A stretch of DNA of 64,000 bases. Source: Undaria pinnatifida (Eukaryota > Sar > Phaeophyceae > Laminariales > Alariaceae). Each line of letters starts with the position of its first letter. Position 1 is the first letter of the stretch. The notes beneath the pieces are model-generated. The model saw only the letters and a program-made list of their open reading frames with translations. It was not told the DNA's origin and did no database searches. The translations under genes were made by a program, and so were the position numbers. Location: positions 7,711,600 to 7,775,599 of the forward strand of contig JABAKD010000017.1 in the NCBI GenBank assembly GCA_012845835.1. Direction: 5' to 3'. Positions 9,160 through 58,222 of this stretch are shown here, piece after piece.

Positions 9160-10005
9160 TTGTATAAAAAACAAAACACACTCCAGCTGTGAGATCGAAT
9201 ATTTTGTCGAAACTCATCTTTGCAAGTTGTGTGTGACACTCCGATCGCGCGTATTACGGGTTGTGTGTCCTCATTAAGGATATAGGTCGGCGACTCCCCT
9301 TGAAACTACAGTGTAGCTATCACGATCAACAGGGTGATGTTAGGCAGTCTGTGCGCGGAAACTCTAAATCCCGTTTCTGAGGGGGACAAAATCTGACAGG
9401 TGTGGAAGGAAGTGGGAGCCTGATTTTGATCAAAAGGGGGCGGGAGGGGGGGAGGGGGCGGAGGGGACAGGTGGGGCAGGTCAATTTGTGCGTGGAAACT
9501 ATAAATCCTTCTTGTGGGGGAGGGGGGGGGGGGGATGTGCCGGGGGGGGGCGGGGGGGCGGGGGAGGAGGGCTTTAGGTCGCATAGATGTAGGGGTTTGC
9601 TATACGCGCGGTTCTAGGTCTAGGCGATGGTGCGGGTGGTGGGGAAGGAGGAGGCGTTCGGGGCGGGGGTGGGTGGGAATTGCAACAGCGGCATGGACGG
9701 CTCTAAAACGATAACGAGGTGATATCCAGGGCGTGGAAGTGTTTATTACCCTAGCGGATTTCGATATTAGATGGGGTGTTTAAGCAATAGAAAGCGAGAA
9801 AAGAAACAAAAACAAAAAGAAGGGGAGGGGGCGGGGGGGGGGAGGGTTTTGAAGAGGTTTAGGTCACATATAATGTTAAAATACACTCCAGCTATGAGAT
9901 CAAGGTTGTGGTCGACACTGATCTTCGCAATATTGGTTGTGATCCTCCGATCGCGCGTATTAATCATATATGTATGGGCTTGCTATACGCGCGGTGCTGG
10001 GACAA
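9160..10005 (+). mobile_element. Family A composite repeat, truncated copy
   Basis: The copy begins with the start module: ACACTCCAGCTGTGAGATCG, then CATCTTTGCAAG, CTCCGATCGCGCG, AAGGATATAGGTCGGCGAC and CTACAGTGTAGCTAT. It continues through a G-rich internal unit (GTGCGTGGAAACTATAAATCC) and one second-type internal unit (CTAGGTCTAGGCGATGG; GGATTTCGATATTAG). At about 9,873 it enters the next unit (TACACTCCAGCTATGAGATCA) and breaks off after GCGCGGTGCTGGG. No coding capacity is visible. Open frames across it are poly-Gly or poly-Pro artefacts of G/C runs. Confidence 0.8.
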
Positions 10006-11060
10006 TTTTGCTGAATTTTGTCGCATCCAGCTTCTGATATATACCTGGTGGTATAGGTTCAGGGTTTTCGTGCGATGAGGACCGGTAGGTGCAAGCCGCA
10101 GTGAGCTGAAGTGGCATATGGGTACCCCTCGTACCATTTCGTACCAGGTACGAGTTCGTACCAGGCACGAGTAGCAGCCTGTCGTTCGGAGTTACAAAAT
10201 AGTGCTCCCGTTGAACACCAACAAGAAGCGAAAGACGCTGCATCCCCATGTAATGCTTGTGTATCCCATTCTATTTATAAATCGACATATCCCACAAAGG
10301 GGTATCGTACAGGAGAGACGCAAAGCTGCAGAGCGACAAGCAAAGGCTGCGGCAGCGCCTTCCACCGTCTTCATCTCTAAGCGGCCGTGGGGAGGGGGGA
10401 TGGGGGGAGGGGGGAGGGGGGGAGGGGGGCTGGAAGAGGGTAGGGGGGCGTCATGCTCAAGAGATTGAAGTCTGGGTCTGGCCATCATCGTCTTGAAATT
10501 TCTGGGCCACCTAATGGCCGTCACAAGATAGCGTAAGACCGCCCTGACTTCTTCGCCATGTTGCCTTCTCTCCCCAGTGCCATTGATGATGCACTTGGTA
10601 CCCTCTATGAGCCCAATGCCGTCTTTAGGCAGTTCCTAGGGTCTTTTAGTATCACATTTTTTTTCTTTTTACTTCCTCGCTTCCTCTTCTTGTCTTGTCT
10701 TTTCTCGTTGTTCTTGTCTTTTCAGTTCTTTCCTTTCCTTTTTCGGTTTTGCGCTTCCTTGTCGTTCCTTTCCTATCCTTTATCTTTTTTTTCTTTGTTT
10801 GTTTTTCCAATTGGCTTGCGTCTGTCGTGGGGATGCGTACTGATAGGTATTACGTGCAATATATTCGTGGTTGTCTTTCTTGGGTGGCAAGCGGTATAGT
10901 CGGTTTTTCCAGGCGCGAGTAGTGACGTATGCACCAGTATGGACCTGGTACATCGTAGGCTGACTCCCGATTTCACGTTTATATGTTTCCGGTGGAGGCA
11001 TGGATTGCGGCAGCTGTAATATAAGCGTGTAACACCTTTTGGCTTGTTTTGTTTTTTCCC
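10006..11060. other. Anonymous sequence with G-run and pyrimidine tract
   Basis: A GGGGGGA-type G-rich stretch lies at 10,384-10,448. A C/T-rich stretch at 10,650-10,800 consists of TTCCT/TTTCT-like words. A TACCAGGTAC palindrome at about 10,143 is followed by a one-mismatch copy. No gene is recognised. Confidence 0.4.
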
Positions 11061-11061
11061 T

Positions 11062-11135
11062 GGGGCATTCCTCGGTTCCAGAGTGACTAGAGCCTGTCCT
11101 GTGACCACGGATTTGATTGTACGAGTTAATGTGAG

Positions 11136-11182
<47 letters not shown>

Positions 11183-11183
11183 C
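11062..11183 (+). repeat. AAC-tailed SINE-like repeat, copy 1
   Basis: A body reading CCAGAGTGACTAGAGCC, then TGTGACCACGGATTTGATTG and GAGTTAATGTGAG, runs directly into an (AAC)n tract at 11,135-11,183. The same body-to-tail order recurs at about 49,130 (+), 51,668 (-) and 53,240 (-). A conserved body joined to a simple-repeat tail is typical of retroposed SINE or LINE 3' ends. I see no tRNA-like A/B box pair in the body, so the class is open. Confidence 0.65.
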
Positions 11184-11504
11184 GAAGTATGCCGGTCGCT
11201 GCGACTGGCGCGCGTACACTCACCACATCACTGGTAGCGGTGGCAGAAAAAGAATATACGAAGCAGTAGAAGCAGCAAGCAGTAGCGTCAGAGTTCCACC
11301 ACAAAGTTTAAACTCGAGCGAGGAACGAGTTTTCAATGGAGTCCACTCAGCTGTCGGTACGAGCACAGTGGGAGTGTGGGTTCAAACTGCCAGGTGATCA
11401 GTGGGATACAAAAAAGAGGAATATGAGTTTTGGGGGATCCGCTCCAGAAACGATTAGAGTTCCAATGAATTTTCTGAGCTTTTCTCGGGGAAAAAAATGT
11501 AAAA
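11184..11504. other. Anonymous sequence between repeats
   Basis: About 320 bp between the AAC tail and the next family A copy. No gene or repeat is recognised. It includes AGCAGTAGAAGCAGCAAGCAG, a loosely AGC-rich stretch. Confidence 0.3.
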
Positions 11505-12262
11505 ACTAAAATACACTCCAGCTGTGAGATCGAAGATTTTATCGAAACTCATCTTTGCAAGCTGTGTGTGATACTCCGATCGCGCGTATTACGGGTGGAC
11601 ATTGTGTGTCCTCATTAAGGAAATAGGTCAGCGAATCCCCTTGCAACTACACAGTGTAGCTATCAGGGTCAACGGAGAGATGTTAGTCAGTCTGTGCCGT
11701 TTTTGAGGGGGACAAAATCTGACATATGTGGAAGGAAATGCATTAGTTTATCAAGCGAATCCTGTAAGTCGAATAACCGGTGGGGGGAGGGCGGGAGGGC
11801 GGAATTTTTAATGACGTGGGGGCCTGGGTTCAATCAAGAGGGAGGGGACGGGGGGCACGGGCGGGCAGCTCAATCTGTGCGTGAAAACTATATATCCTAT
11901 CATCTAAGTCGTACACCCAGAGTGAGGAGAAAGCGGAGCGTTCGAAGCGGGGGGGGGGGGGCGAAAGGGTTTTTAAACAACATGTTCAGGTCGCGTAGAT
12001 GTAGGGGTTTGCGTTACCCGTGGTGCTAGGTCTAAGCGATGGTGCTGGTGGTGGAGAAGGAGGGGGCGTTGGGGAGGAAGGGGGATTGCAGCAGCGGCGG
12101 GGGGGGGGGGGGTTGCAGCACAGGCATGGATGTCTCTAGAAAGATAAAATGAGGTGGTATCAAGTGCGTGGAAGTTTTTATTACTCTGGCAGATTTCTCT
12201 GTTAGGTGGGGTGTTTGAGCAAGAGGGACCAGGAAAAAAAAAAAAAATGGGGGGGGTATACT
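11505..12262 (+). mobile_element. Family A composite repeat, truncated copy
   Basis: The start module (TACACTCCAGCTGTGAGATCG through GGGGGACAAAATCTGACA) is followed by GTTTATCAAGCGAATCCTGTAAGTCG. Next come a G-rich spacer and the second-type internal unit with CTAGGTCTAAGCGATGG, CTCTAGAAAGATAAAATGAG and GGCAGATTTC. The copy stops in an A14-G8 junction at about 12,233-12,256. No end module is present. Confidence 0.8.
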
Positions 12263-13394
12263 AAATGATGCATTCCCAATGTCTGATATAAAACTCTAAC
12301 TTATTTTCGTCAACAGAACCAACCTCAAGATTGTCAATTGTATGTACTTACCAACATAGCCAACCTCACGCTTGCAAAATTAAATAATTAGTACCAGGTA
12401 ACAACATTATGACTGGTGTCCCAATTCATCTGCCTCTTACTGTCTAGTACGTACCCATGAAATATAGCCGTGAACCAAATGAACCAATCTTTTTGTGTTT
12501 CCCTTTCGTACACAGGTACTTCAATCAACATATCATGGAAAAACATCTACACAAAAAATGTGCAAAGCACTTGTACATTCAGTCGGTCATTGTTCTTTGC
12601 TTCAACCTTCGTTGTGTGCGGGTTTGAGCTCCGCTCTTTGTGCTAGTATCGTCCCGTAGTGACTGAGGTGAACCAAAGAACCTTAGTGACATGTTCAAGC
12701 GCATTGCTAAGCTGTTCAGGTGCTAAAAGACTGTAAGACTTCCTTCATCTGCGGCAAACATACAGATGAATATTTGGTGACGAAAGAGTGTAATATACTC
12801 GAGTGATTCAAATAGACCGAAACGATGTGCGGTCCAAGAAAAACGATAATGATATGTCATGGATGGGATGCAAGCAGCAATATCGCAGCGATCATAACCA
12901 GTCAGGAAGGACGGGACGGACTGGATATAAGCAACTGCTGCTGTGCACTGCCTATACGAAGGAAGCGCTATTTGAAGTATACCACAACATGCTGATGATG
13001 CTTACTAGTCATGCTCACACCTCGTCGACTCACAAGTCATGCTCACAACTCGTTGATTTTCCATTATGAGTAGTGTACTTCCAATTCGTGGACTCTTCAG
13101 ATGACCTGACTCAGTAACCTAGTTAGTGCAAACATCCAGTGTAGTTAACAGATGATAAAATGCATTCCACATGCGGGGAAACAACTTCGCAACTTTTGCA
13201 TGATAACACGACTCAGAAATATAAATGGTATCATCTTAAGATTAATATTTAGTACGATCAGCTGCTGTTGTAACCAAAACTCTTTCGTGCTAGAATGAAA
13301 CCGAAAAAATGAGAGAGCGGATTCCAGGAAATAGAATCATTTACAAAAAAATAACTGTTTTCACGCGTACATAATAATAGCTGTAGTTAATGTG
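12263..13394. other. Anonymous sequence
   Basis: No gene is recognised. A short tandem duplication (AGTCATGCTCACA...CTCGT) lies at about 13,006-13,055. A near-match to TACCAGGTAC occurs at about 12,392. Confidence 0.3.
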
Positions 13395-13912: not shown

Positions 13913-13969
13913 GTTTCGGGTTTTCGTGTGTTTTGTTCTTTTTCAGAATGGAATTTTTATATTATAAAA

Positions 13970-14360
13970 ATTAAAATACACTCCAGCTGTGAGATCGAAG
14001 ATTTCGTCGAAACTCATCTTTGCAAGCTGTGTGTGATACTCCGATCGCGCGCATTACGAGTTGTGTGTCCTCATTAAGGATATAGGTCGGCGACTCCCCT
14101 TACAACTACAGTGTAGCTATCAGGGTCAACAGGATGATTTTAGTCAGTCTGTGCGCGGAAACTATAAAACCCGTTTTTGAGGGGGACAAAATCTGACAGC
14201 TAGCTGTGAAGGGAAAGGGGGGCCTGGTTTTGATCAAAAGCGAGCGGGTTTGGAGAGGGGCGGGGGGGGGGGGGGGAAAGGGGCAATTTGTGCATGTAAG
14301 CTCTAAATCCTTTCGAGGGGATACATCTGACGGTTTTGGCACCAGGATATTATTGGGGGC

Positions 14361-14391
<31 letters not shown>

Positions 14392-14613
14392 GGGGCGGGG
14401 GGGAAGTGGAAGGGGGGGGGGGGGGCAGCTCAATATGTGCCTGGAAACTATACATTATTTTGAGGGGATAAATGTGACATTTTTGGAGATAATACATCAG
14501 TTTATCATGTATATCCTGGGGTAAGTCGTACAATCAGTGAGTAAAGAGAGGGTGGAGTGTTCGAGGGGGTGGGGTTGGGATGGGTTGGGGGGGGAGGGGG
14601 GAGGGTGGGGGGC

Positions 14614-14652
<39 letters not shown>

Positions 14653-15598
14653 GGAAGGGCTTTAGGTGAGGGGTTTGTTATACGTGTGGTGTTAGGTCTA
14701 GGCGAAGGTGCGGGTGATGGGGAAGAAGGGGGCGTTCGAGGCGGGGGGGGGGGAGGGGGGGGGGGGGGGGAACACAGCGGCATGGATGGCTCTCGAAAGA
14801 TAATGAGGTGATATCCTGTGCGTGAAGTGTTATTAATGTGGCGGATTTCGATTTTTGGTGGGGCGTTTGAGTAAGGGAGAGCAAGAGAGGGAGGGGGGGA
14901 GTTTTTTTAGGAGGTTTAGGTCACAAATAATATTCAAATACACTTCGGCTGTGACATCAAAGATATGTATCAGCTTGTTATACGCGTGGTGCTAGGTCTA
15001 GGCGATCGTGCAGGTGGTCGGGAAAGAGGGGGCGTTGGAGGGGGGGGAGGGGGGACACAGCGGCATGGATGGCTCTCGAAAGATAATGAGGTGATATCCT
15101 GTGCGTGAAGTGTTTATTAATGTGGCGGATTTCGATATTTGGTGGGGCGTTTGAGTTAGGGACAGCAGGAGGGGGGGGGAGGGGGGGGGGGGGGGGGGGG
15201 TTCAGGAAGTTTAGGTCACAAATAATATTCAATACACTTCAGTTGTGAGATCAAAGATATGTATCAGCTTGTTATACGCGTGGTGCTAGGTCTAGGCGAT
15301 CGTGTAGGTGGTCGGAAAAGAGGGGGCGTTGTGGAAGGGGGGGGGGGGGGGGGGGGTTGGGGGGAAAATATTTGAAAACTACGTCATGGATGGTCAGAAA
15401 GATAATGACGTGATATCAACTGCGTATAGGTGTTTATTACTCAGGCCGATTTTGATTGTGAGTGGGGCGTTTGGACAGACTAGGCGGAAGGGGGGGGGGG
15501 ATCGGGGGACGGAGGGGCGGGGGGGGGAAGGGTCGGGGTTTGTTATGAAAAAGAGGTCAGTGGAGGGGGCGGGACATTTCAATATGTGCGCGGATATT
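13970..15598 (+). mobile_element. Family A composite repeat, near-complete copy lacking end module
   Basis: The start module is at 13,975-14,200. Two first-type internal units follow, marked by GTAAGCTCTAAATCC and CTGGAAACTATACATT and separated by G runs. About three second-type units follow, marked by TAGGTCTAGGCGA at about 14,693, 14,994 and 15,291. The last unit leads to GTGCGCGGATATTATATG at about 15,590, where family B sequence takes over in place of the expected end module. Together with the reverse copy at 15.96-17.37 kb it forms a convergent inverted pair. Confidence 0.85.
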
Positions 15599-15958
15599 AT
15601 ATGTATTAGATCACTACTACTGTCTTCATACCCCCGATGTAGACCAAAACCCGCCACTATGGTGCAAAAGAACAAAATAGTAAGACCACGCCCACGCAGA
15701 GAAAACTTACCTACGCACTCCACCACAAGTCCCAACAACCCTGACCAAGTCATCCATCCGCAAACCATCTACCATACATATGGTAGAGCAATGTAGTGGA
15801 AACTACAGCAATAAATTTACAAAGAAGATGTGATGTTAGATCTACTTCAAATCTCCCACCTAAAGTAAAAATACCAACACCAATCATTGTAGTGGAGGAA
15901 AACATTTGTTTTTTAATGGAAAAAAAAAGAACCCCTCCATGAGAAAAATTTCACCCAC
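15599..15958 (+). repeat. Family B repeat, left part
   Basis: The segment matches 24,830-25,200: CACTACTAC, GTCTTCAT, ACCAAAACCCGCCACTA, CAGAGAAAACTTACCTACGCACT, CCATCCGCAAACCATC, GTAGAGCAAT and GTGATGTTAGATCTAC. It is cut at about 15,958 by reverse-oriented family A sequence, so its right terminus is missing. Confidence 0.75.
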
Positions 15959-15959
15959 A

Positions 15960-16976
15960 TAGTATAATGTATTGTTTCCATGCACAGATTGAGCTGTCCC
16001 ACCCGCCCCACCCCCGCCCCCCCACCCCCCCACCCCCCCCCCCCCCACCTCCCATGATAAACTGATGGATTTTTTTTTTTTTTTTCTCCCAAAACCGTCA
16101 GATTCATCCCCTTAAAGGATTTATAGCTTCTACACACTAATTGCCCGGCCGTCCTTCTCCCGCCCCCTTCCCTTTCCCCCACCTCAAACCNNNNNNNNNN
16201 NNNNNNNNNNNNNNNNNNNNNNNNNNNNNNNNNNNNNNNNNNNNNNNNNNNNNNNNNNNNNNNNNNNNNNNNNNNNNNNNNNNNNNNNNNNNNNNNNNNN
16301 NNNNNNNNNNNNNNNNNNNNNNNNNNNNNNNNNNNNNNNNNNNNNNNNNNNNNNNNNNNNNNNNNNNNNNNNNNNNNNNNNNNNNNNNNNNNNNNNNNNN
16401 NNNNNNNNNNNNNNNNNNNNNNNNNNNNNNNNNNNNNNNNNNNNNNNNNNNNNNNNNNNNNNNNNNNNNNNNNNNNNNNNNNNNNNNNNNNNNNNNNNNN
16501 NNNNNNNNNNNNNNNNNNNNNNNNNNNNNNNNNNNNNNNNNNNNNNNNNNNNNNNNNNNNNNNNNNNNNNNNNNNNNNNNNNNNNNNNNNNNNNNNNNNN
16601 NNNNNNNNNNNNNNNNNNNNNNNNNNNNNNNNNNNNNNNNNNNNNNNNNNNNNNNNNNNNNNNNNNNNNNNNNNNNNNNNNNNNNNNNNNCCCCCCCAAC
16701 CCATTCCCAACCCACCCCCCGAACACTCCACCCTCTCTCTACTCACTGATTGTACGACTTACCCCAGGATATACATGATAAACTGATGCATTATTTCCAA
16801 AACCGTTACATGTATCACCTCAAATTAATGTATAGTTTCCACGCACATATTGAGCTGCCCCACACGCCCCACCCCCGCCCCAACCCCCCGCCCCCCAATA
16901 ATAAACTGGTGGCCAAACCGTCAGATTTATCCCTTGAAAGGATGTATAACTTACACGCACAAACTGCCCCCCCCTT

Positions 16977-17014
<38 letters not shown>

Positions 17015-17370
17015 AAGCTTGCTCGCTTTTGATCGAAACCAGGCCCCCACGTCCTTCAAAACTTCGCCCCGCCCCCTCACCTGGTATTCGACTTACAAGA
17101 TTCACTTGATAAAAGGATACATTTTCCTCCACAGCTGTCAGATTTTGTCCCCCTCAGAAACGGGTTTTATAGTTTCCGCGCACAGACTGACTAAAATCAC
17201 CCTGTTGACCCTGATAGCTACACTGTAGTTGTAAGGGGAGTCGCCGGCCTATATCCTTAATGAGGACACATAACTCGTAATGCGCGCGATCGGAGTATCA
17301 CACACAGCTTGCAAAGATGAGTTTCGACGAAATCTTCGATCTCACAGCTGGAGTGTATTTTCATCTATTA
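15960..17370 (-). mobile_element. Family A composite repeat, reverse copy with assembly gap
   Basis: The start module reads on the minus strand and lies at 17,135-17,362. First-type internal units with C runs on the plus strand lie to its left. The copy spans the N block. Flanking both sides of the gap are first-type unit sequences (AAAACCGTCAGATTCATCCCCTT at about 16,085; CCCCAGGATATACATGATAAACTG at about 16,763). The gap therefore falls inside the repetitive core of this copy. Confidence 0.8.
16191..16690. other. Assembly gap, exactly 500 N
   Basis: The block of N is exactly 500 bases, which looks like a default scaffold spacer rather than a measured length. It is flanked by C-rich family A sequence on both sides. 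The missing DNA is probably more of the same internal tandem units. Confidence 0.99.
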
Positions 17371-17371
17371 T

Positions 17372-17712
17372 AATAACTATCAAAACTCTGTATTCTTACT
17401 CCTCCCGATATTAAAGCGGGGGGACGAAAAGCAAAGTAAACCACCTACCTTACATATTAGAGAACAGTACTGTGGAAACGTCAATAATACATTTATAAAA
17501 CAGATTTGATGCTAGATCTAGCTCGAAATTTCCCACCTCTAGTAAAAAGACCAACGCGCACTATCCAATAAAATGGACAAAAAATAGGACCCCTCTCAAT
17601 AAAAAACTCGCCCATGTAATATATTACAAGTAACAACAACGCAGCTTGCGATAATGAGTATTGACCCGAAATTCGTCGAACTCGCGGCTGACGCCATAAA
17701 AGTATCGTGTAT
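17372..17712 (+). repeat. Family B-related repeat, right part
   Basis: It matches 29,880-30,205: TCTGTATTC, ACTCCTCCCGATA, AAAGC/CGGGGGGA and ACCGCCTACC-like sequence. It then has GTGGAAAC, GATCTAGCTC, TGGACAAAAAATAGGACCCCT and a terminal block GAGTATTGACCCGAAATTCG...GCGGCTGACGCC. That terminal block resembles the reverse complement of the family A start (GAGTTTCGACGAAATCTTCG...ACAGCTGGAGTG). Confidence 0.7.
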
Positions 17713-18717
17713 GAAATGTCCAAGACTATGGAGTCGGCCCCACGACGTAGTTTAAGTGACCCAGAACTTTTAATGGAGAGAACCTAAGTGCATTCCGTTG
17801 CCGCTTTTCGCCTCTTATGAGTCTATCCATTTGGGTATTTCTTGGGTATTTTTCAACAACAACTACAGAATTTTTGAAGTTGCAGAGGCCTACTAGTATT
17901 GGAACTGATCCAGGATTGTGATATTGTTCAAAATTGGATAAAAAATGCTTATAATTAAAGCATTGTCTTGAAAATTAAACTAACATTACAGTAACAGATC
18001 CATTATTACCATTCCCAAAAGTTATCTGAAGAAAACCGTCTATATAATTGGCGGTTGATGTGATTTTCAAATCATAAAATCTGTATGAAACCTATGTTTG
18101 AAAATGAAACTGACCTTATTAGAATATTTTCATGAAATATACATACGGGAATAACCCTTCCCCTCCCCCAGCGAGACTACACGCGTACACCAGCTAAGAG
18201 CTGATGCACGTCACATGTGATATCATATACAATAGGTTAAACAGGTTTCGACCCTCGCACCCGTAAACGAGGAAAGCGGCAGCACGGATTCACGATCATT
18301 ATTATTGAGGACGGCCGATCAAGAAAGTTACTGATGCTTACGGGAGCTTCTACATCTATACAAGTACGAGCAGACGCATCAGACGACGGACTACGAGTAC
18401 TTCGTTGAACTGGCGGTGAGTGAGTGAGCAAATCTAGAGGACCCTACGCACTCAATCCGAGCAATTGAAGCTAGAGAGCTGTGATCGAGGTACCCAGAGG
18501 TATAGACGCCACCACAACACAGGTTGAACCATATTAAACACCCTCGCTCACGGGACCGTAAGAGCCCAACTCAAAACCTTGATATACTCGAGTAAACAAC
18601 TGCTGAAAGTTGCCTCGATTTCAAAGCGTCTCGTTCTGAGCAACAGCGGTGCAGAGGCAACTCTCGACAGTACAAGATACTGTCTTTTATTAAAGCTGTG
18701 ACCTCTAATTCAAGGAC
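17713..18717. other. Anonymous sequence upstream of the copia element
   Basis: No gene is recognised. A direct repeat of CTTGGGTATTT-like words occurs near 17,838. Part of this region may belong to an unrecognised 5' LTR, but no boundary can be fixed by eye. Confidence 0.25.
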
Positions 18718-18718
18718 T

Positions 18719-20480: not shown

Positions 20481-20481
20481 G

Positions 20482-24445: not shown

Positions 24446-24827
24446 GTTTTTTTTGTTTTTGTTTATTTTCTGTTTTTTGTATTTCTATTATTTTTTCTTC
24501 TATTTTTCCCTTTTTTTTTCTTTTTTTTTTTCTTTAATGTATTTGTTTTGTTTATGTTTTAGGGCGGGACCTGTACGTGTAAAATTTTGTGGTGACAGTA
24601 TATTTTATTTCATTCATTTATTCATATTATTAATTTATGTTTTTTTTTTTTTTTTTTTTTTCCTTTTTTTTTTTTCTTCTTCAATGTAATTGTTTTGTTT
24701 ATGTTTTAGGGCGGGACTTGTACATGTAAAATGTTATGGTGACAGTATAGTTTATTTTATTCATTTATTTATATTAATTTATTACATTTTATTATATATA
24801 TATTTTTATGGTAGAACTTTTACATGA
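24446..24827 (+). repeat. Poly-T and (T)nC stretch with GGGCGGGAC repeats
   Basis: Long T-rich tracts alternate with two near-identical copies of a GTTTATGTTTTAGGGCGGGAC...TACGTGTAAAAT(T/G)TTATGGTGACAG block at about 24,547-24,600 and 24,694-24,748. These blocks are the spacer part of the T-arm-like unit, so this extends the same array in decayed form. Confidence 0.6.
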
Positions 24828-25310
24828 TATGTACTATATTAGGCCACTACTACGGTCTTCATGCTCTCGATTTATACCAAAACCCGCCACTAGAGTGAAA
24901 AATAAAACAAAACAATAAAAATGAAAAACCACCCCCAGGTAGAGAAAACTTACTTACGCACTTGACCACAAGTACCAAGAACCCTGACCAAGCCATGCAT
25001 CCGCAAACCATCCACCATGCATACGTATCGTAGAGCAATATAATAGTAGAAACTACAGAGATAGATACATACTTGAAGTACAATAGATATGATGTTAGAT
25101 TACTTCAAAATTCTCCACCTAAAGTAAAAATACTAACACCAATGATTGTAGTGCAGAAAAACATTTGTTTATAGAAGCATATGGGACCCCTCTCATTGAA
25201 AAGTTTTACCCACATAGTATAGTGTATTACAAGTACCAGCAAGCACCTTCAAAGTATGAGTACTGGCCTGAAATTCGTTGAGCTCACACCTGACGTCCTG
25301 AATATATATA
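24828..25310 (+). repeat. Family B repeat, most complete copy
   Basis: It runs from TATTAGGCCACTACTACGG through ACCAAAACCCGCCACTAGAG and TGATGTTAGATTACTTC to CACCAATGATTGTAGTG. It ends with the block GAGTACTGGCCTGAAATTCG...CACACCTGACGTCCTGAATATATATA. The right end abuts a TA-rich tract. Partial copies lie at 15.6, 17.4 and 29.8 kb. No coding potential is seen. Confidence 0.75.
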
Positions 25311-25351
25311 CATATTATAAAAATATAAATATATATTACAAAAAAAAAAAA

Positions 25352-25400: not shown

Positions 25401-25427
25401 TTTTATTATTATCAATATATATATATA

Positions 25428-25806
25428 CCCCCTCCCCCCCCCCCCCCTCCAAACCCGCTCGCTTTTGATCAAAACCAGGCCACCACGTCCTTCAAAACTC
25501 CGCCCACCCCCCTCACCGGTTATTCGACTTGCAAGATTCACTTGATAGAGGGATACATTTCCCTCCACAGCTGTCAGATTTTGTCTCCCTCAGAAACGGG
25601 TTATATAGTTTCCGCGCACAGACTGACTAAAATCATCCTGTTGACCCTGATAGCTACACTGTAGTTGTAAGGGGAGTCGCCGACCTATATCCTTAAGGAG
25701 GACACACAACTCGTAATGCGCGCGATCGGAGTATCACACACAGCTTGCAAAGATGAGTTTCGACGAAATCTTCGATCTCACAGCTGGAGTGTATTTTCAT
25801 TTTTTA
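25428..25806 (-). mobile_element. Family A, reverse-oriented truncated copy
   Basis: The start module reads on the minus strand at 25,565-25,794, followed leftward by the CACTTGATAGAGGG and C-run block of the first internal unit. It breaks at a TATATATACCCCC junction at about 25,425. It meets the next copy head-to-head across a palindromic TA tract. Confidence 0.85.
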
Positions 25807-25821
25807 TAATATATATATATT

Positions 25822-25918
25822 ATAAAAAATGAAAATACACTCCAGCTGTGAGATCGAAGATTTCGTCGAAACTCATCTTTGCAAGCTGTGTGTGATACTC
25901 CGATCGCGCGCATTATAT
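25822..25918 (+). mobile_element. Family A start-module fragment
   Basis: Only the first ~90 bp of the start module (to CTCCGATCGCGCGCATTA) are present. They are followed directly by a second TATATATATTATAAAAAATG and a full copy. The duplicated TA-tract plus start end suggests local tandem duplication or repeated insertion at the same tract. Confidence 0.85.
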
Positions 25919-25929
25919 ATATATTATAA

Positions 25930-27494
25930 AAAATGAAAATACACTCCAGCTGTGAGATCGAAGATTTCGTCGAAACTCATCTTTGCAAGCTGTGTGTGAT
26001 ACTCCGATCGCGCGCATTACGAGTTGTGTGTCCTCCTTAAGGATATAGGTCGGCGACTCCCCTTACAACTACAGTGTAGCTATCAGGGTCAACAGGATGA
26101 TTTTAGTCAGTCTGTGCGCGGAAACTATAAAACCCGTTTCTGAGGGGGACAAAATCTGACAGCTGTGAAGGGAAAGGGGGGGGCTGGTTTTGATCAAAAG
26201 CGAGCGGGTTTGGAGGGGGGCGCGGGGGGGGGGGGGGGGGAAGGGGCAATAAGTGCATGTAAGCTATAAATTCTTTCGAGGGGATAAATCTGACGGTTTT
26301 GGCACCAGTATATTATTGGGGGCGGGGGGGGGCGGGGGGGGGGGGGGGGGGTTGGGGCGGGGGGGGGGGGAGGGGGCAGCTCGATATGTGCCTGGAAACT
26401 ATACATTATTTCGAGGGGATAAATGTGACATTTTTGGAAATAATACATCAGTTTATCGTGTATATCCTGGGGTAAGTCGTACAATCAGTGAGTAAAGAGA
26501 GGGTGGAGTGTTCGAGGGGGTGGGGTTGGGATGAGTTGGGGGGGGAGGGTGGGGGGTGGAGGCGGGGGTGGGGGGTGGGGGGGGGTGGGGGGGGGGGAAG
26601 GGCTTTAGGTGAGGGGTTTGTTATACGTGTAATGCTAGGTCTAGGCGAAGGTGCGGGTGATGGGGAAGAAGGGGGCGTTCGAGGCGGGGGGGGGAGCGGG
26701 AAACAGCGGCATGGATGGCTCTCGAAAGATAATGAGGTGATATCCTGTGCGTGAAGTGTTTGTTAATGTGGCGGATTTCGATATTTGGTGGGGCGTTTGA
26801 GTAAGGGAGAGCAAGAGGGGGGGGGGGGGGTGATTTTTTAGGAGGTTTAGGTCACAAATAATATTCAAATACACTTCGGCTGTGAGATCAAAGATATGTA
26901 TCAGCTTGTCATACGCGTGGTGCTAGGTCTAGGCGATCGTGCAGGTGGTCGGGAGAGAGGGGGCGTTGGAGGCGGGGGGGGGGGGGGGGGGGGAAACACA
27001 GCGGCATGGATGGCTCTCGAAAGATAATGAGGTGATATCCTGTGCGTGAAGTGTTTATTAATGTGGCGGATTTTGATATTTGGTGGGGCGTTTGAGTAAG
27101 GGAGAGCAAGAGGGGGGGGGGGGATTTTTAGGAGGTTTAGGTCACAAATAATGTTCAAATACACTTCGGCTGTGAGATCAAAGATATGTAGCAGCTTGTT
27201 ATACGCGTGGTGCTAGGTCTAGGCGATCGTGTAGGTGGTCGGAAAAGAGGGGGCGTTGGAGGGGGGGGGGGGGGGGGGGGGCGGAATAATTGAAACCTTC
27301 GTCATGGATGTTCAGAAAGATAATGACGTGGTATCAACTGCGTATAGGTGGTTTATTACTCAGGCCGATTTTGATTGTGAGTGGGGCGTTTGGACAGACT
27401 AGGCGGAAGGGGGGGGGGGGGATCGGGGGACGGAGGGGCGGGGGGGGGGAAGGGTTGGGGTTTGTTATGAAAAAGAGGTCAGTGGAGGGGGAGG

Positions 27495-27526
<32 letters not shown>

Positions 27527-28200
27527 GCGGGACATTCCAATATGTGCGCGGAAACTATAAATTCTCAAAGGGGACAAACCTGACGATTGAAGCAATAAGA
27601 CATCCCTTTATATCATCTGGCTTGTAATGTTTACTATTCTAGAAGGTTTGATGTTAAGTGCAGCATGCAACCCAGTGTTTAAGTGTAGTAAATAACGTGT
27701 TAAATCTTCACAGTTTGTTGTTGTATGATACAGCGATCGAAAGCTAGAATATTTTATAGAATATTTGTAGGTACCATTATTTTCTGACATCGCTAATTAT
27801 AAGAAAGAGATACGTATTGTCAAATGCAACAGGCGAGGTGATGTGGTCATGCACTGTGTTTGTCACCATCATACAGGCACCATTATTATCGACATCGCTA
27901 ATTATACGCACGAGATACGTATTGCCAAATACAGCATGCGAGGTGATGTATGTGGCCATGTGCTGCCTCCGTCATTGAGCATTAGAGGGAGGGATGCGAA
28001 TCGACGCTTGGTATACATGTGCTCAATTACGTTACCTCATTAGTCATACTTGGTATACACGCGCTCAATCACGTTACCTCGTTAGTAATACTTCGCTTGG
28101 CATAGGTGGGGAGGCGATCATGCACACGGTATGTACGAAATACCCTACGTAATGGGTTGGTAAGGTTGTTTACCGCAATTTTAACACATCTGCTTGTGCT
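25930..28200 (+). mobile_element. Family A composite repeat, apparently full-length
   Basis: Start module at 25,937-26,165. First-type units are marked by GTAAGCTATAAATTC and CTGGAAACTATACATT. Second-type units are marked by TAGGTCTAGGCGA at about 26,636, 26,926 and 27,217, each with GGCATGGATGGCTCTCGAAAG and a G run. A transition unit follows at about 27,290-27,540. The end module starts at GTGCGCGGAAACTATAAATTC (27,543), passes through TCTAGAAGGTTTGATGTTA and CATCGCTAATTATAAG, and ends near 28,200. The end module carries internal duplications of about 100 bp (27,770/27,872) and about 45 bp (28,010/28,050). No protein is encoded. Confidence 0.85.
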
Positions 28201-28208
28201 TATATATA

Positions 28209-28239
<31 letters not shown>

Positions 28240-28240
28240 G
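28201..28240. repeat. (TA)n microsatellite at tail-to-tail junction
   Basis: A run of TATATAATATAATATATATA separates the end modules of two oppositely oriented family A copies. The same kind of tract lies at head-to-head junctions, consistent with insertion into TA repeats. Confidence 0.9.
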
Positions 28241-28558
28241 TTGCATTACCATCACCTCGCCTGTTGTATTTGGCAATATGCATCTCCTTATAATTAGCGA
28301 GGTCAGAAAATAATGGTATCTACATTATTGTACCTTTCGATTGAAGTATTCTATCTTTCGATCCATGTTAACAAATTATAAAGCTTTTAACACGTTGTTT
28401 ACTACACCTAAGAACTGGGTCGCATACTACATGCAACATCAAACCTTCTAGAAAAATAAACATTACCAGGCGGGTGATATAAAGCGGTGTCTTCTTGCTG
28501 CAACCGTCAGATTCGTCCCCTTCAAGGGTTTATAGTTTCCGCGCACATATTGAAATGC

Positions 28559-28599
<41 letters not shown>

Positions 28600-29800
28600 A
28601 TCCCTCTTGTTTAAACGCACCACCTGAAATCAAAATCTGCCAGAGTAGTAAATACTACCACCCAGCTGATATCATCTCATTATCCATCTGGCCATCCATG
28701 CCATAGCTCCAACTCATCTATCCACCCCCCCTTTTGTTTTCGTTCAAACGCCCGACATACAATCGAGATAGGCCAGAGTAGTAAACACTTATAATTCATT
28801 GATACCACTCATTATCTTTCTAGCCATCCATGACGTAGCTTTCATTCACCCCCCCCCCCCCCCCTCTCCAACGCCCCGTCCTTCCCCACACCCCGCACGA
28901 TCGCCTGGACCCAGCGCCGCGCGTATAGTAGGCCCCTACATATGTGATTAATTCGCGCGATCGGATGATCACACACAATGTTGCGAACATCAGTGTCGAC
29001 TAAATCCTGGATTTAAATATTAAATGTTACCTAAACCTCTTGAAAACCTTTTCCCCCCCTCCCCCCTTCCCGCCTTTTTTTTTTTTTTTCCATCTTTTCC
29101 CTCGCTTTCTCCTGCTTCAACGCCTCACCTACTATCGAAATCCGCCAGAGTAATAAACACTTCCACGCCCTAGATATCGCCTCGTTATCGTTCCAGAGCC
29201 GTCCATGCCGCTGCTGCAATTCCCACCCACCTCCGTCCGCAACGCCCCCTACTTCACCCACCACCCGTACCATCGCCTAGACCTAGCACCACGCGTATAG
29301 CCGACCCCTACATCTTTGCGACCTAAAGCCCTCCCCCCCTGCCCCCGCCCCCCCCCCGCCACATTCCTCCCCCTCCCCCACAAGAAATATTCATAGTTTC
29401 CACGCACAAATAAACCTGCCCCACCCATCCCCTCCCCCCCCTCCCCCCCCTCCCGCCCCCCTTTCGATCAAAATCAGGCCCCCACGTCCTCAACACCTCT
29501 GCCCTCCCCTCACCGGATATTCTTACAGGATTCACTTGATAAACTGATGCATTTCCTTCCACAGCTGTCAGATTTTGTCCCCCTCAGAAACGGGTTTTAT
29601 AGTTTCCGCGCACAGACTGCCTAACATTACTCTGTTGACCCTGATAGCTACACTGTAGTTGCAAGGGGAGTCGCCGACCTATATCCTTAATGAGGACACA
29701 CAACCCGTAATACGCGCGATCGGAGTATCACACACAGCTTGCAAATATGAGTTTCGACAAAATATTCGATCTCACAGCTGGAGTGTATTTTAATGTTTAT
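28241..29800 (-). mobile_element. Family A composite repeat, reverse near-full copy
   Basis: On the minus strand the copy starts with the start module (29,565-29,790), then has a first-type unit, second-type units (29,270-29,030 and 28,930-28,640) and the end module at 28,560-28,241. The end module matches 27,543-27,860 in reverse. It lacks the outermost ~350 bp of end sequence present in the plus copy. With 25.93-28.2 kb it forms a ~3.9-kb imperfect palindrome. Confidence 0.85.
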
Positions 29801-29809
29801 AATATATAT

Positions 29810-30207
29810 TATTTTTTTGTTTTACTTTTGAGGGGGAGTAGCCGACTTTCATTGTCGAATGCTGTATAAAGAGTAACATATATGATAACTAATAATATTC
29901 TGTATTCGTACTCCTCCCGATAGTAAAGCCGGGGGAGAAAAAACAAAATAAACCGCCTACCATAATGCGATAGAACAGTTTTATAGTGGAAACTACAGTG
30001 TTAAATATATAAAATAGATGTGATGTTACATCTAGCTCAAAATTCCCCACCAAAAAAAAGAAAAAAAACTTACCACTCATCATAGTGGACAAAAAATAGG
30101 ACCCCTCCCAATGAGAAGTCACCCATATAGTATATTACAAATGGCTTGTAAGAGTGAGTATTGACCTAAAATTCGTCGAACTCACGGCTGGCGTCCTTGA
30201 ACTATTT
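29810..30207 (+). repeat. Family B-related repeat, right part
   Basis: It matches 17,372-17,712, including TGTATTCGTACTCCTCCCGATA, GTGGAAACTACAG, GATGTTACATCTAGC and TGGACAAAAAATAGGACCCCT. The terminal block is GAGTATTGACCTAAAATTCGT...ACGGCTGGCGTCC. It follows the family A start end across a TA-rich tract, as at 17.37 kb. Confidence 0.7.
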
Positions 30208-30689
30208 TTTATAAAATACACCACAGCGTTTGATTCAATTTCAAATACAAGGCGTTTTCGTGTCGACTTGAGAATAAACGACGCGTTATTCTCACACAGA
30301 ATGCTTTCCGGGGTAAGCGGAGTTTCCTCCCCCACCCTTTGTTGCCGATATCGGATGGGTGGGTCTGAAGCATCATCCTCACGAAAGATGACTACGCAGC
30401 AAGCGTTGACAATAGCTTCTCACGAACCAAGAATGATGCATTTGAACAGCCACCGTTCTTGGTTTGAACATCTACTACCCCCGCGAAGAACGAAAAGGAC
30501 TGCATGCCGTCACTATACTCTCTAGAGGCCGACGTAGCAACATTCGTTGCACACATCGCCGCCTCGAAGTCGCCAGATTCCAGGCGGCCAGGACTGCATC
30601 ACTTGAACCGAACATCCGAAGTCAACTACGATGTACGGTACCTCTAACGTTATCCGTTCCGTGCGGCCCCTCTCACCCGCGGTTCTAGC
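30208..30689. other. Possible 5' part of the hAT gene, unrecognised
   Basis: Open frames exist but none matches a BED zinc finger or other hAT N-terminal domain by eye. The stretch at 30,520-30,640 reads ADVATFVAHIAASKSPDS in one frame, which may be coding but is unsupported. Confidence 0.25.
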
Positions 30690-45655: not shown

Positions 45656-45657
45656 AA

Positions 45658-51668: not shown

Positions 51669-51824
51669 GAAAAAAACACGCACACATATGCACAAAGTAC
51701 ACATACAAACAAAATCAAAAGTGGGACACGCATGTACCATAGCTGACGCAACTCATGACTCCGCCAAAAATTTTGAATAAAATAGTGTCAAATATATGGT
51801 TCCTACGCGCCACTGAAGTATTAC

Positions 51825-51985
51825 ACGCAGCTTGCAAAGCTGAGTTCTGGTCGAGAATCCTTTTTGGTCGATCTCACGCACACAGCTCAAGTCTATTTTT
51901 TAAAAGAAATTTTCAACACGTCAGCTGTGAGTTCGACCAATTTCGGGTCTATACTCATCTTTACAAGCTGCGTTGTCGGTTTGTA
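51825..51985. repeat. Convergent pair of family A/B-like terminal blocks
   Basis: 51,835-51,895 (CGCAGCTTGCAAAGCTGAGTT...CGATCTCACGCACACAGCT) and 51,922-51,975 (GTCAGCTGTGAGTTCGACC...ACTCATCTTTACAAGCTGCG) are inverted relative to each other. They carry the same word order as family A starts and family B ends. Only about 30 bp separate them, so this may be a small terminal-repeat-only element. Confidence 0.6.
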
Positions 51986-52027
51986 ATATACTACGTGTAT
52001 TTATTGAAAATGAATAAATGGGCAAAC

Positions 52028-52400: not shown

Positions 52401-52489
52401 CCTTTCCGCACACAGCACGAACGGCTGCTCAACCATACATAGCTCGCACAACCCACATAGACGTGTAATATATTACTCGGAGTATTAAC

Positions 52490-53155
52490 ATATAATACAA
52501 TCCAGCTGTGAGATCGAGTATTTTGTCAAAAAAAAAAATATGCAAGCTGTGTTTGATATTTCGATCGCGCGTATTACGGGTTGTTGTGTGTCCTCATCAA
52601 GGATATAAGTCGGCGACTCACCTTGCAACTACAGTGTAGCTATCGGGGGCAACAGGGTTATGTCAGGCAGTCTGTGCGCGCGGAAACTATAAAACCGGTT
52701 TCTGAGGGGGACAAAATCTGACGTCTGCGGAAGGAAATACATCAGTTCATTAAGTGAATCCTGTAACTCGAAAAACCGGTGAGGGGGGAGCGGAGTTTTT
52801 AAGGATGTGGGGGCCTGGTTTTGATCAAACGGGAGCGGGGGTTGGGGGGAAAGGGGGGGGGGGAACGGGTGGGGCAGCTCAAAATGTGCGTGGAAACTGT
52901 AAATCCTTTAAGGGGATACATCTGACGGTTTTGGAAAGAATGCACGAGTTCATCATGCGGAGGGAGGGGCGGGACGGGCGAGACAGCTCAATCTGTGCGT
53001 GGAAACTAGACATCCTTTAAGGGGATAAATGTAACTGCTTTGAAAATAATGCACCAATTTGTCATGTATATCCTGTGAGTCGTACATCCAGTGAGTAGAG
53101 TGCGGAGTGTTCTCGAGGGGGTGGGGGTGGAGTGGGGGGGTGGGGAGGTGGGAGT
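52490..53155 (+). mobile_element. Family A, truncated copy
   Basis: Start module at 52,495-52,725, with a run of A replacing part of the CTCATCTT block. Two or three first-type units follow, with GTGCGTGGAAACTGTAAATCC and GTGCGTGGAAACTAGACATCC and the CCTTTAAGGGGATA block. The copy stops at GGGTGGGGAGGTGGGAG and joins the AAC-tailed repeat. Confidence 0.8.
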
Positions 53156-54210: not shown

Positions 54211-54224
54211 CTAACCGTAAATAT

Positions 54225-56645
54225 ATATGTATATATATAATTTTGTTTCAAAAATACATAACACTCCAGCTGTGAGATCGAATATTTTGTCAAAACGCAT
54301 CTTCTTTGCAAGCTGTGTGTGATACTCCGATCGCGCGTATTACGGTTTGTATGTCCTCATTAAAGATATAGGTCGGCGACTCCCCGTGGAACTACAGTGT
54401 AGCTCGTACCAGGGTCAACAGGGTTATGTTAGCCAGTCTGTGCGCGGAAACCATAAAACACGTTTTTGAGTGGGACAAAATCTAGCAGCTGGGGAAGGAA
54501 ACGCATAAATTTATCAAGTGAATCCCGCAAGCAAAATAGCCGGTGAGGGGAGGGCGGAGTTTTGAAGGACGTGGGGGACTGATTCTGGTCAAAAGAGGGG
54601 CGGGACGGGGGGAGGGGGGGGAGGGGACGGGTGGGGCAGCTCAATTTGTGCGTGGAAAATATAAATCCTTTCTGTGGCGAAGGGGGGGGGAATCTGACGG
54701 GGTGGGAGGGCTTCAGGTCGCATAGATGTAGGGGTGTGCTATACGCGTGGTGCTAGGTCTAGGCGATGGTGCGGGTGGTGGGGAAGGAGGGGGCGTTGGG
54801 GACGGGGACGGGGGGGGGGGGGGGGGGGGGTTCAGCAGCGGTGTGGACGGCTCTAGAAAGATAATGAGGCGATGTCCAGGCCGTGGAAGTGTTTATCACT
54901 CTGGCGGATATCGATATTAGGTGGGGCGTTTAAGCAAGGGAGAGCGAGGATAAAAACGCGGAAAAAAACAACGGGGGGGGGCGGGGGGGGGCGGGAAGCG
55001 TTTTCAAGAGGTTTAGGTCAAATACAATATCAAAATACACTCCAGCGAGATCAAGGATTTGGTCGACACTGATCTTCGCAACATTGTGTGTGATCCTCCG
55101 ATCGCGCGTAAAATCATATGTGTAGGAGCTTGCTATACGCCCAGTGCTTGGTCTAGGCGATCGTGCAGGGTGTGGGGAAGGAGGGGGCGTTGGAGGCGTT
55201 GGAAGCTAGGGAGAGCAAGAAAAAAAAAGGGGGGGAGGGGGGGGGGAGGGGGTTTCAACAGGTTTAGGTCGCATAAAATATTATAAAATGCACTCCAGCT
55301 ATGAGATCAAGGATTTGGTCGACACTGATCTTCGCAACATTGTGTGTGATCCTCCGATCGCGCGTATTAATCATATATTTAGTTAGGGGCTTGATATACG
55401 CGCGGTGCTGAGTCTAGGCGATCGTGCGGGGTGTGGGGAAGGAGGGGGTGTTGGAGGGGGGGAGGGGGGATGAATGAAAGCTACGTCATGGATGGCTAGA
55501 AAGATAATGACGTGATATCAATTGCTTAGAAGAAGTGGTTTTTACTCTTGCCGATTTCGATTATAAGTTGGGCGTTTGAACGAACTGGGCGGGGAACAAA
55601 AGCGGGGGGGGAGGGCGGAGATGAGTTGGAGCTACGGCATGGATAACTCGATGGAAAATGAGATGATATCAGCTGGCTGGTAGTGTTTACTACTGTTGTG
55701 GATTTCGATTTCAGGTGGGGCGTTTGATCAAGAGGGATCGGGGGGGGGGGGCAAATCAATATGTGCGCCGACACTATAAACCCTGCAAGGGGACGAATCT
55801 GATATTTGTAGCCAGAAGACACCGCTTTATATCACCCGCTTGGTAATTAATGTTTCTAATATTCTAGAAGGTTTGATGTTACATGTAGTATGCAACCCAG
55901 TTCTTAAGTGTAATAAACACGTGTAAAAAGCTTCATAATTGGTTATTGTACATGGATCGAAAGATAGAATATTTCAATCGATATGTATGTACAATCATGT
56001 AGATACCATTTTTTTCTGACACCGCTAATTATAGGAAAAATATACATATTGCCAAATACAACAGGCGAGGTGATGAGGTGATGCAACGTCACCGCCATTG
56101 AGAACGAAAGGGAGAAATACGAATCGTTATTGTTTTGAAAGGAACGCTTAGTGTACACGCGCTCATTTACGTTACTTTGTTAGTCATACTCCGCTTGGCA
56201 TAGATTGAGAGGCGATCATGCAAGCGGTATGTACGGAATACCTTACGTAATAAGTTGGTAGTGCGGTTTACCGCAACTTTGACATATCGGTCTGTACCTC
56301 CTTTTCACGTTATTATTGTCTCACATGTACGATTTTACGACTATGATTTTTACCGTGCCAATGTGGGGCTCTGAGGTCGCCAACTCTAATACAGGGGTAC
56401 ATCTTACAAATACACCGAGCGAGATGACGTGGGCATGCGATGTCACCACTATTGAACGCGAGGGTGACATCATTTGTTAGGCACATTATGCTACCGCGTT
56501 TGGTATGGATTGGCAGGCGATAATGCAAACGGACGGAGGCACGAAATACCCTGCGTAATAGGTTGGTAGTGTGGTCTACCGCAGTGCTAACATATCTCTC
56601 TACTCCTTTGTTATTATCTAGTGTACGATTATACGCCCTGTTTTC
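54225..56645 (+). mobile_element. Family A composite repeat, longest copy
   Basis: It is preceded by TATATATGTATATATATAA. The start module is at 54,262-54,490. First-type unit at about 54,650. Second-type units carry CTAGGTCTAGGCGATGG or close variants at about 54,757, 55,150 and 55,410, each containing CACTCCAGC...GAGATCAAGGATTTGG and ACACTGATCTTCGCAACATTG. A transition unit lies at 55,490-55,740. The end module starts at about 55,760, with CATTTTTTTCTGACACCGCTAATTATAGG near 56,005. The outermost segment is duplicated: 56,170-56,350 and 56,500-56,645 share GGCGAT(C/A)ATGCAA, CGTAATA(A/G)GTTGGTAGTG and TACCGCA. Confidence 0.85.
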
Positions 56646-57117
56646 TCCCCACTGTCGTCGAAGATGTTGTGGTCCTGTAGATGTCGCGTCCATGTCTGGT
56701 ACTCTTGTGTGAGTGGTGCTCATGAAAACATGCCCTAGCGGGAAGTAGATGATCGCTGAGTGGCGTTCCTTTCCTTTACATCACGCCAGGTAATATTTGT
56801 CAACGCAACCGCTCGCTTGAAAACGACTATATACATACAGGGGGGCTTCGCCGCGGCGGGCTGACGCCCACCTGTGGCTCCGGACATGCCCGTAAGACAG
56901 GTAGCAAGCGAAGCGCAGAGGGACCGTAGAAGTGACAAGTTACTGGCAAGGGGTACGTTTTGATATTATATCAGTTTGTTGTGGTGTCTGCAAGTATGAT
57001 GAGGTGGAGCGAATTTGGACAGGTTTTGTACATAGTGAAGGGAGAAAGCAATAGAACGGTCCAAAGGTAGAGAAACCCATGATGATTTTCGTATCATGTG
57101 TCAGATACATATATGTA
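56646..57117. other. Anonymous sequence
   Basis: No gene or clear repeat is recognised. Confidence 0.35.
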
Positions 57118-57850
57118 TTGTAATATTATATGTGACCTAAACCTCTTGAAAACCCTTCCCCCCCTATATATATTCCTCGCTTTCTTTTGCTTAAACGCCC
57201 TAATATCGAAATCCGCCAGAGTAATAAACACTTCCACGCCCTGGATATCGCCTCGTTATCGTTTCAGAGCCGTCCATGCCGCTGCTGCAATTCCCACCTA
57301 CCCCCGCCCCCAACGCCCCCTCCTTCCCCACCACCCGCACCATCGCCAAGACCTAGCACCACGCGTATAGCAAACCCCTACATCTATGCAACCTAAAGCC
57401 CTCCCCCACCGCCTCCGGCCCCACCCCGCCACACCCCCCCCCCCTCCCCCACAAGAAATATATAGTTTCCACGCACAAATTGACCCTTTCCCCCCCCCCC
57501 CCCCGCCCCCCTTTTGATCAAAATCAGGCCCCCACGTCCTTAAAAACTCCGGCCTCCCCTCATCGGATATTCGACTTGCAGGATTTACTTGATAAACTGA
57601 TGCATATTTTTTCATAGCTGTCAGATTTTGTCCCCCTCAGAAACGGGTTTTATAGTTTCCGCGCACAGACTGACTAAAATCATCCTGTTGACCCTGATAG
57701 CTACACTGTAGTTGCAAGGGGAGTCGCCGACCTATATCCTTGATGAGGACACACAACTCGTAATGCGCGCGATGGGAGTATCACACACAGCTTGCAAAGG
57801 TAGATGAGTTTCGACAAAATCTTCGATGTCACAGCTGGAGTGTACTGAAG
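57118..57850 (-). mobile_element. Family A, reverse truncated copy
   Basis: Start module at 57,612-57,842 (minus). A first-type unit and one second-type unit follow leftward, ending at TATATGTGACCTAAACCTCTTG (57,128), which is the exact internal unit boundary seen in other copies. It meets the next copy head-to-head across TATATATATTATA. Confidence 0.8.
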
Positions 57851-57875
57851 TATTTGTTTTTATAATATATATATT

Positions 57876-58222
57876 ATAAAAATTAAAATACACTCCAGCT
57901 GTGAGATCGAAGATTTCGTCGAAACTCATCTTTGCAAGCTGTGTGTGATACTCCGATCGCGCGCATTACGAGTTGTGTGTTCTCATTAAGGATATAGGTC
58001 GGCGAATCCCCTTACAACTGCAGTGTAGCTATCAGGGTCAACAGGATGATTTTAGTCAGTCTGTGCGCGGAAACTATAAAACCCGTTTCTGAGGGGGACA
58101 AAATCTGACAGCTGTGAAGGAAAAGGGGGGCCTGGTTTTGATCAAAAGCGAGCGGGTTTGGAGGGGGGCGTGGGGGGGGGGGGGGGAAAGGGGCAATTTG
58201 TGCATGTAAGCTATAAATCCTT
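57876..58222 (+). mobile_element. Family A, truncated copy
   Basis: The start module at 57,889-58,110 and the first G-run unit end at CTATAAATCCTTTATATATATG, where a TA tract interrupts the usual CCTTTCGAGGGG. This supports breakage or insertion at TA-rich sequence. Confidence 0.8.

Follow-up and report, generated by a model that had tools for sequence, protein, structure and literature searches.

The 64,000-nucleotide stretch of the Undaria pinnatifida genome analysed here (the window; G000:C23:7711600-7775599, in an assembly of 511,146,479 bases and 68 contigs) carries copies of a repeated element, family A, which had been described from the letters alone as a composite of start, internal-repeat and end modules (hereafter the sequence-only reading). 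Comparison of the window with itself gave about a dozen related blocks plus relatives. Family A is indeed composite, its internal tandem repeats vary and no protein was seen in it, and we propose below that it probably spread by target-primed reverse transcription (TPRT). The copies in the window are as follows, the strand given being the inferred sense strand.

9163..10001, minus strand: copy truncated at its 5' end, fixed 3' end at 9163 (self-comparison, modules)
11500..12256, minus strand: 5'-truncated copy, fixed end at 11500 (self-comparison, modules)
13953..15593, minus strand: copy with three second-type units, fixed end at 13953 (self-comparison, modules)
15964..17375, plus strand: copy broken by an assembly gap, fixed end at 17375 (self-comparison, modules)
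25430..25808, plus strand: short copy, fixed-end-to-fixed-end with 25811..25915 (self-comparison, pair-arm comparison)
25811..25915, minus strand: truncated terminus of 105 bp, in tandem with the 25915..28200 copy and identical to it over about 105 bp
25915..28200, minus strand: long copy with fixed end, first-type units, three second-type units and E modules
28240..29809, plus strand: copy in the orientation opposite to 25915..28200, fixed end at 29809
52483..53154, minus strand: diverged copy (self-comparison, modules)
54238..56827, minus strand: longest copy in the window (self-comparison, modules)
57114..57864, plus strand: copy with fixed end at 57864 (self-comparison, modules)
57865..58223, minus strand: short copy, fixed-end-to-fixed-end with 57114..57864

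The assembly gap (500 Ns, 16191-16690) lies inside the 15964..17375 copy, beside its C-tracts. A (TTTG)n array of about 91 units (13554-13916) stands just ahead of the fixed end at 13953.

Fixed end, truncation and target-site duplications

The start modules lie where the sequence-only reading had placed them. Exact 19-mers of the start were found on the plus strand at 9178, 11513, 13978, 25837, 25941, 54261 and 57890 and on the minus strand at 17338, 25774 and 29768; the match at 57825 on the minus strand has one mismatch, and a diverged start at 52,497 has 3 mismatches in a 25-mer. In the 511 Mb of the genome the exact start 25-mer has 9,049 matches (4,632 + 4,417) and its reversed control 0, which excludes chance and makes family A a real and very abundant family.

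Copies were compared at loci sampled around exact terminus matches on one contig, 20 of ten kb and 30 of three kb, and the sample is therefore enriched for young copies. Loci L001-L030 overlap L031-L050 in part, and copies were made unique by their flanks. Among 82 non-redundant start matches, some of which are internal terminus copies (S2, described below), a common block begins about 16-20 bases before ACACTCC, with the tail ...ATAAAAATKAAAAT, and beyond this fixed end the flanking DNA differs from one match to another. The opposite end is variable. A full mismatch scan, used both for copy lengths and for target-site duplications, gave 93 terminal copies, with 16 internal S2 sequences removed, and 86 of the copies were eligible; their homologous length runs from 45 to 2,567 bp with a median of 525; the reference set limits the upper values to about 2.6 kb, and the copy at locus L048 enters as about 2.1 kb. 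Random breakpoints, which the sequence-only reading had named as evidence against a defined element, are found at this truncated end and are absent from the fixed one.

Across the genome, the further a module lies from the fixed end, the fewer matches it has. Counted as 25-mers at up to 3 mismatches, with reversed patterns as controls (0 in each case), the terminus is present 31,009 times, the module about 195 bp in 18,149 times, that about 1.5-1.7 kb in 2,690 times and that about 2.0 kb in (as measured in L048) or more 867 times; a degenerate 22-letter pattern of E3 has 1,297 exact genome matches. Once the window share of internal units is subtracted from the terminus count, family A has very roughly 25,000 termini in the genome.

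Flanking duplications were found far more often than mismatched flanks would give. At both ends of the copy, a flank match of at least 7 bp was seen in 19 of the 86 copies against 5.1% of mismatched flanks (0 of 5,000 permutations), and one of at least 9 bp in 5 of 86 against 0.8%. The duplications seen span 7-19 bp and are variable in length; clear ones measure 12 bp and 7 bp in L032, 11 bp in L045 and 19 bp in L033. The L033 copy sits within a family B element, and copies of B without this interruption occur at other sites. A second filled site is provided by L048, in which a copy of 3.7 kb (about 1196-4934) interrupts a repeat; that repeat is found in its empty form at another position of L048 and also in the window, L018, L035 and L038. 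In the 54 copies that have no other terminus close by, A+T makes up 0.91 of the last 20 bases; beyond them the fraction drops to 0.63-0.65 over 16 bases and then to 0.55-0.57, so the insertion target is mildly AT-rich.

Internal repeats and the 5' side

Long copies keep the order of modules first described (start, first-type, second-type, E), and the number of second-type units does vary, from 1 to 3 in window copies. These units sit between the motifs TTTAGGTC and TATACG. The short form is typically 35 bp (TTTAGGTCGCATAGATGTAGGGGTTTGCTATACGC) or else 25 bp, whereas the long form, of about 130 bp, contains a 5'-truncated copy of the terminus together with its tail, at the same place; a shortened S2 form of 70-73 bp exists too. 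The bases flanking S2 are CACATAT and CGCATAT in L048, and in the window copy at 9858 the two flanks have CATAT in common. A scan for units found 19 short and 14 long matches (33 in all), a few of which (e.g. L038 1774-, L033 7039-) are unrelated joints. In six comparable copies (window 9.6, 14.7, 26.6 and 54.7 kb, L041 and L049) the first unit is without the insertion and a later unit has it; L031, with two short units, is the exception. The diverged start that had been noticed within the second-type unit is thus carried by later units, and the comparison of units with and without it identifies it as a fossil self-insertion, multiplied later with the unit. The following examples in the window come from comparison of filled and empty units.

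55026..55110, minus strand: S2, fossil self-insertion (5'-truncated terminus) in a second-type unit
55273-55369 and 9872-9962: further S2 fossil self-insertions

The sequence-only reading also left open that family A seeds satellites; a tandem array was seen only inside the element, as its unit array.

What had been taken for an end module is internal. Its motif CATCGCTAATTATA lies inside long copies (27788, 27893, 28289 on the minus strand, and 56020) and stands twice in one of them (27788, 27893), and homology runs past it in L045, L046 and L048. At L048 position 3499-3500 homology was continuous in all 40 scored places, the best 40 of 1,498 candidates. Further out, the far 0.7 kb of the L048 insertion is of long terminal repeat (LTR) type. 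The repeat starts at L048 4223 and is 335 bp long, to 4557; among 40 scored candidates 38 matches begin at this joint, and in six fetched stretches at such starts, with seven copy ends, the first base is the same and the flanks are unalike. Two other places, on contigs C22 and C61, are continuous with family A across the joint, and two more, on C32 and C25, are colinear but have about 0.2-0.35 kb of additional sequence there, so some long copies are chimeras with an LTR element. In the C22 locus a second such repeat (93% identity) lies about 2.5 kb beyond, towards the sense 5' side; by its sequence match the repeat at the C22 joint would be an LTR. The LTR-type repeat is itself present in many copies of about 340 bp, reading TGTAGACAC...TGTCCACA in sense (L048 4223-4557; G000:C22:2563226-2563568, locus L062).

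Mode of spread and alternative explanations

The combination of a single fixed end, an opposite end truncated continuously and target-site duplications of variable length is the mark of TPRT. Family A has all three, and we therefore take it to be non-autonomous and to have spread by TPRT, most likely with a long interspersed nuclear element (LINE) acting in trans, a reading to which we give a probability of about 0.72. It follows from the TPRT pattern that the fixed end should be the 3' end of the RNA and the C-rich strand the sense strand, which reverses the polarity implied by the name start. Runs of at least five G are on the antisense strand in 11 of 11 window copies tested, with none on the sense strand, and the sense-strand terminus reads ...GGAGTGTATTTT[CA/AA]TTTTTATA.

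The process may be pictured as follows. The RNA of family A would be a transcript of C-rich sense, ending in the former start module. A helper endonuclease would nick mildly AT-rich DNA and the 3' end of the RNA would be copied from the nick, synthesis usually halting early and leaving a short duplication of variable length (7-19 bp where seen). The element's own AT-rich tail would be a favoured target, giving rise to fixed-end-to-fixed-end pairs, and one self-insertion into a second-type unit, multiplied with that unit, would have contributed to the variable internal array.

A homologous 3' terminus of about 80-100 bp stands on the other bodies of families B, D, F and H, which would be expected if one helper served several non-autonomous families. 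The 262 kb examined contain 111 termini, all families counted together, and 26 close pairs (same-orientation pairs being counted within 120 bp), 12 in the same orientation, 12 fixed-end-to-fixed-end and 2 facing. The arms of inverted pairs are only a little more alike than re-paired arms (0.869 versus 0.852, permutation p about 0.05, 12 pairs), so that repeated insertion into AT-rich tails is their simplest cause. The fixed ends, AT-rich as they are, would seem to be hot spots for insertion. An origin of these pairs from self-primed hairpins was rejected on the same comparison, though such an origin is possible for two pairs with 0.98-1.00 identity. The shared termini, the paired fixed ends, the one-end truncation and the target-site duplications had no part in the sequence-only reading.

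As helper, a LINE is preferred because of a precedent in Ectocarpus. As described in PMC12477816, RTEX-N1_Ec32 is the most abundant single family there, non-autonomous, about 600 bp long and present in thousands of copies, and its 3' end is conserved between it and RTE-X LINEs; CRE, RTE and Chlamys Penelope-like elements (PLEs) are reported in that genome as well. A PLE would also give a TPRT-like outcome and is possible as helper because partial tandems and inverted neighbours are usual in PLEs. The account of Penelope in PMC3846280 gives partial tandems, inverted pseudo-LTRs (pLTRs), junction palindromes, a TATATATA motif and target-site duplications of 8-10 bp, and family A is similar in its partial tandems, inverted neighbours, TATATATA-like junctions and short duplications; the 12 same-orientation and 12 AT-rich-junction fixed-end-to-fixed-end pairs among the 26 recall this arrangement. 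However, neither the window nor 15 of the loci gave a hammerhead ribozyme match at the Rfam gathering score (PLE protein was not sought), and the similarity of re-paired arms makes most inverted neighbours look like separate insertions. We therefore consider a PLE helper rather improbable. We give about the same low standing to the view that the modules belong to an autonomous LINE that has been partly lost, as its 3' untranslated region, and form no separate non-autonomous family. That view accounts for truncation at one end, for long copies that extend past the E modules and for an insertion as long as the 3.7 kb of L048, but in the frames listed for the L048 copy no reverse transcriptase (RT) or endonuclease (EN) frame was recognised by eye, no family search having been run, and the far 0.7 kb of that copy is the LTR-type repeat whose joint is continuous in two other places and nearly so in two.

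Two kinds of DNA transposon are much harder to reconcile with these observations. Helentron-associated HINE and DINE elements and pearl elements, to which the sequence-only reading had likened family A, have two fixed ends and insert without target-site duplication. Variable tandem repeats between conserved modules and AT-rich insertion sites are indeed shared with them, but a single fixed end, a truncation gradient at the other and enriched duplications of variable length (7-19 bp) are at odds with a Helitron-derived element, which we consider very improbable. Equally remote, or slightly more so, is a foldback or other transposon with long terminal inverted repeats, in which start(+)...start(-) pairs such as 25,915-29,809 would be single elements. 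Several such pairs occur in the window, L039 and L046; many sampled copies, however, are solo with one terminus (e.g. L034, L038, L040, L042, L044 and L047), single-terminus copies carry flanking duplications of variable length, and other DNA separates the halves at 56,827-57,114. A transposon of this type would pair inverted termini around each copy and leave duplications of constant length, and this interpretation of the pairs was dropped on account of the frequent solo copies with their variable duplications.

Several observations weigh against spread by TPRT with a LINE helper. No flank match of at least 7 bp was seen in 67 of the 86 copies, perhaps because the far end was placed only approximately, or through decay or deletion of the target (as judged by eye in L038). 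The gradient is no pure truncation curve, since the modules have diverged to different degrees and internal S2 units contribute to the terminus count at up to 3 mismatches (in the window, 3 of 15). An autonomous element with the family A 3' end was not found; two LINE families, at one locus each, had no such terminus in the fetched 3' stretches, and in an RVT_1 profile search of the genome none of the 150 best of 3,526 candidates, which were the ones scored, lay within 23 kb of 100 distal copies listed of the 867. A common RNA fold of the terminus is without covariation support: in the predicted fold 81.5% of cells pair, against 13-40% when slid, but shuffled sequences reach 81.3%, no both-side changes occur in 18 sequences, and RNAalifold finds no pair. 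A conserved 3' stem-loop, of the kind that LINEs of the stringent type recognise, is accordingly not supported for the terminus. On the other refuting possibility named in the sequence-only reading, that the copies are fragments of a known autonomous element, no match was found, in a comparison that left Repbase and Dfam outside.

Among known systems, RTEX-N1_Ec32 is the closest to the TPRT element proposed here, being an abundant brown-algal non-autonomous family with a conserved 3' end that is thought to depend on a LINE. The likeness is one of description (PMC12477816), the 3' end shared with RTE-X being reported for RTEX-N1, and family A differs in having copies that reach several kb (against about 600 bp) and in its two kinds of G/C-tract internal repeats. 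The composite retrotransposons SVA and LAVA, which contain a variable number of tandem repeats (VNTR) and are stated to be specific to hominoid primates (PMC4432496), are likewise non-autonomous and composite, with a central GC-rich tandem array of variable length and LINE-type integration. Family A is without an Alu-like part or poly(A) end, its tail being ...TTTTTATA in sense, and its variable internal array resembles theirs in form only; homology is not implied.

Short interspersed nuclear elements (SINEs) that depend on LINEs include several families with a common 3' tail, to which the homologous 3' end of families A, B, D, F and H may be compared. Family A differs from SINEs in lengths far above theirs and in that no RNA polymerase III head, which in SINEs derives from tRNA, 7SL or 5S, was found in the window with ARAGORN, which gave no tRNA, or Rfam. 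No Rfam family reached the gathering score in the window and 15 loci, where the 5' end of family A was not established. At a lax Rfam threshold, 52400-58300 gave only hairpin artefacts, and the 'miRNA' matches near 57,800-57,930 were discarded as artefacts of the inverted terminus pair.

We tentatively suggest, while thinking it somewhat more apt to fail than to hold, that family A represents an independently evolved SVA-like lineage of brown algae, its central array built in part from the fossil of its own 3' recognition end. Internal 3' ends might then serve as extra starts for reverse transcription, with self-insertion feeding growth of the array; some long copies might have captured a segment of an LTR element on the 5' side, and A, B, D, F and H, different bodies with a common 3' end, would be rivals for one helper. 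What is new is the SVA-like array built partly from the element's own 3' end; a TPRT-type family as such is of known kind. No description of family A was found in the literature under narrow search terms. If true, an algal VNTR-type element would offer an independent case for the role of the array in mobilisation, and family A also bears on how several non-autonomous families use one 3' end. Annotation is corrected as well, as the copies could otherwise pass as Helitron-like elements or satellites.

Relatives of the terminus and neighbouring features

Relatives of family A in the window are the following.

24826..25330, plus strand: family B copy with homologous 3' terminus
17369..17717, plus strand: family B copy (self-comparison, terminus homology)
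29881..30217, plus strand: family B copy (self-comparison, terminus homology)
15593..15973, plus strand: family B body without its terminus
51806..51995, strand not assigned: diverged relatives of the terminus, a fixed-end-to-fixed-end pair
7501..7798, plus strand: two family D termini

Other repeats lie among them. At 24126-24470 and 13393-13461 there are diverged units, repeated and with spacers rich in T, that carry a motif (GTGGGTTCGAGGCCCACCGACTC) like a tRNA B box. An open frame of 543 residues (20427-22055) is perhaps a Copia-type remnant; of the 10 window frames compared with Pfam it gave the sole match, a weak one to gag_pre-integrase below the cut-off.

Repeats ending in (AAC)n were found at 10555-11183, with related pieces at 51566-51675 and 53159-53231, and in L063. 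They are 83-85% identical to the stretch 3' of a LINE on contig C33 that has an open frame of 1267 residues, and that stretch, 83% identical to window 10657-11156, itself contains an (AAC)n run. On this identity, the (CAA/TTG)n runs may be LINE 3' tails. Elsewhere in the genome, at G000:C22:21636853, an RT match lies inside an open frame of 6,858 residues.

The EsV-1-7 domain is expanded in brown algae, and its genes here indicate a brown-algal host. Its cysteine-rich repeats (PF19114) gave 2,170 candidates in the genome, of which the best 150 were scored, and none in 14 control genomes, a control that says little about other eukaryotes because the named control genomes are prokaryotic. A zinc-finger-like class is described in PMC12477816 as having proliferated in brown algae and as otherwise mostly known from giant viruses. 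Towards the end of the window, two arrays of 177-bp tandem units (59464-59895 and 60573-61049) have differing consensus sequences by Tandem Repeats Finder (TRF).

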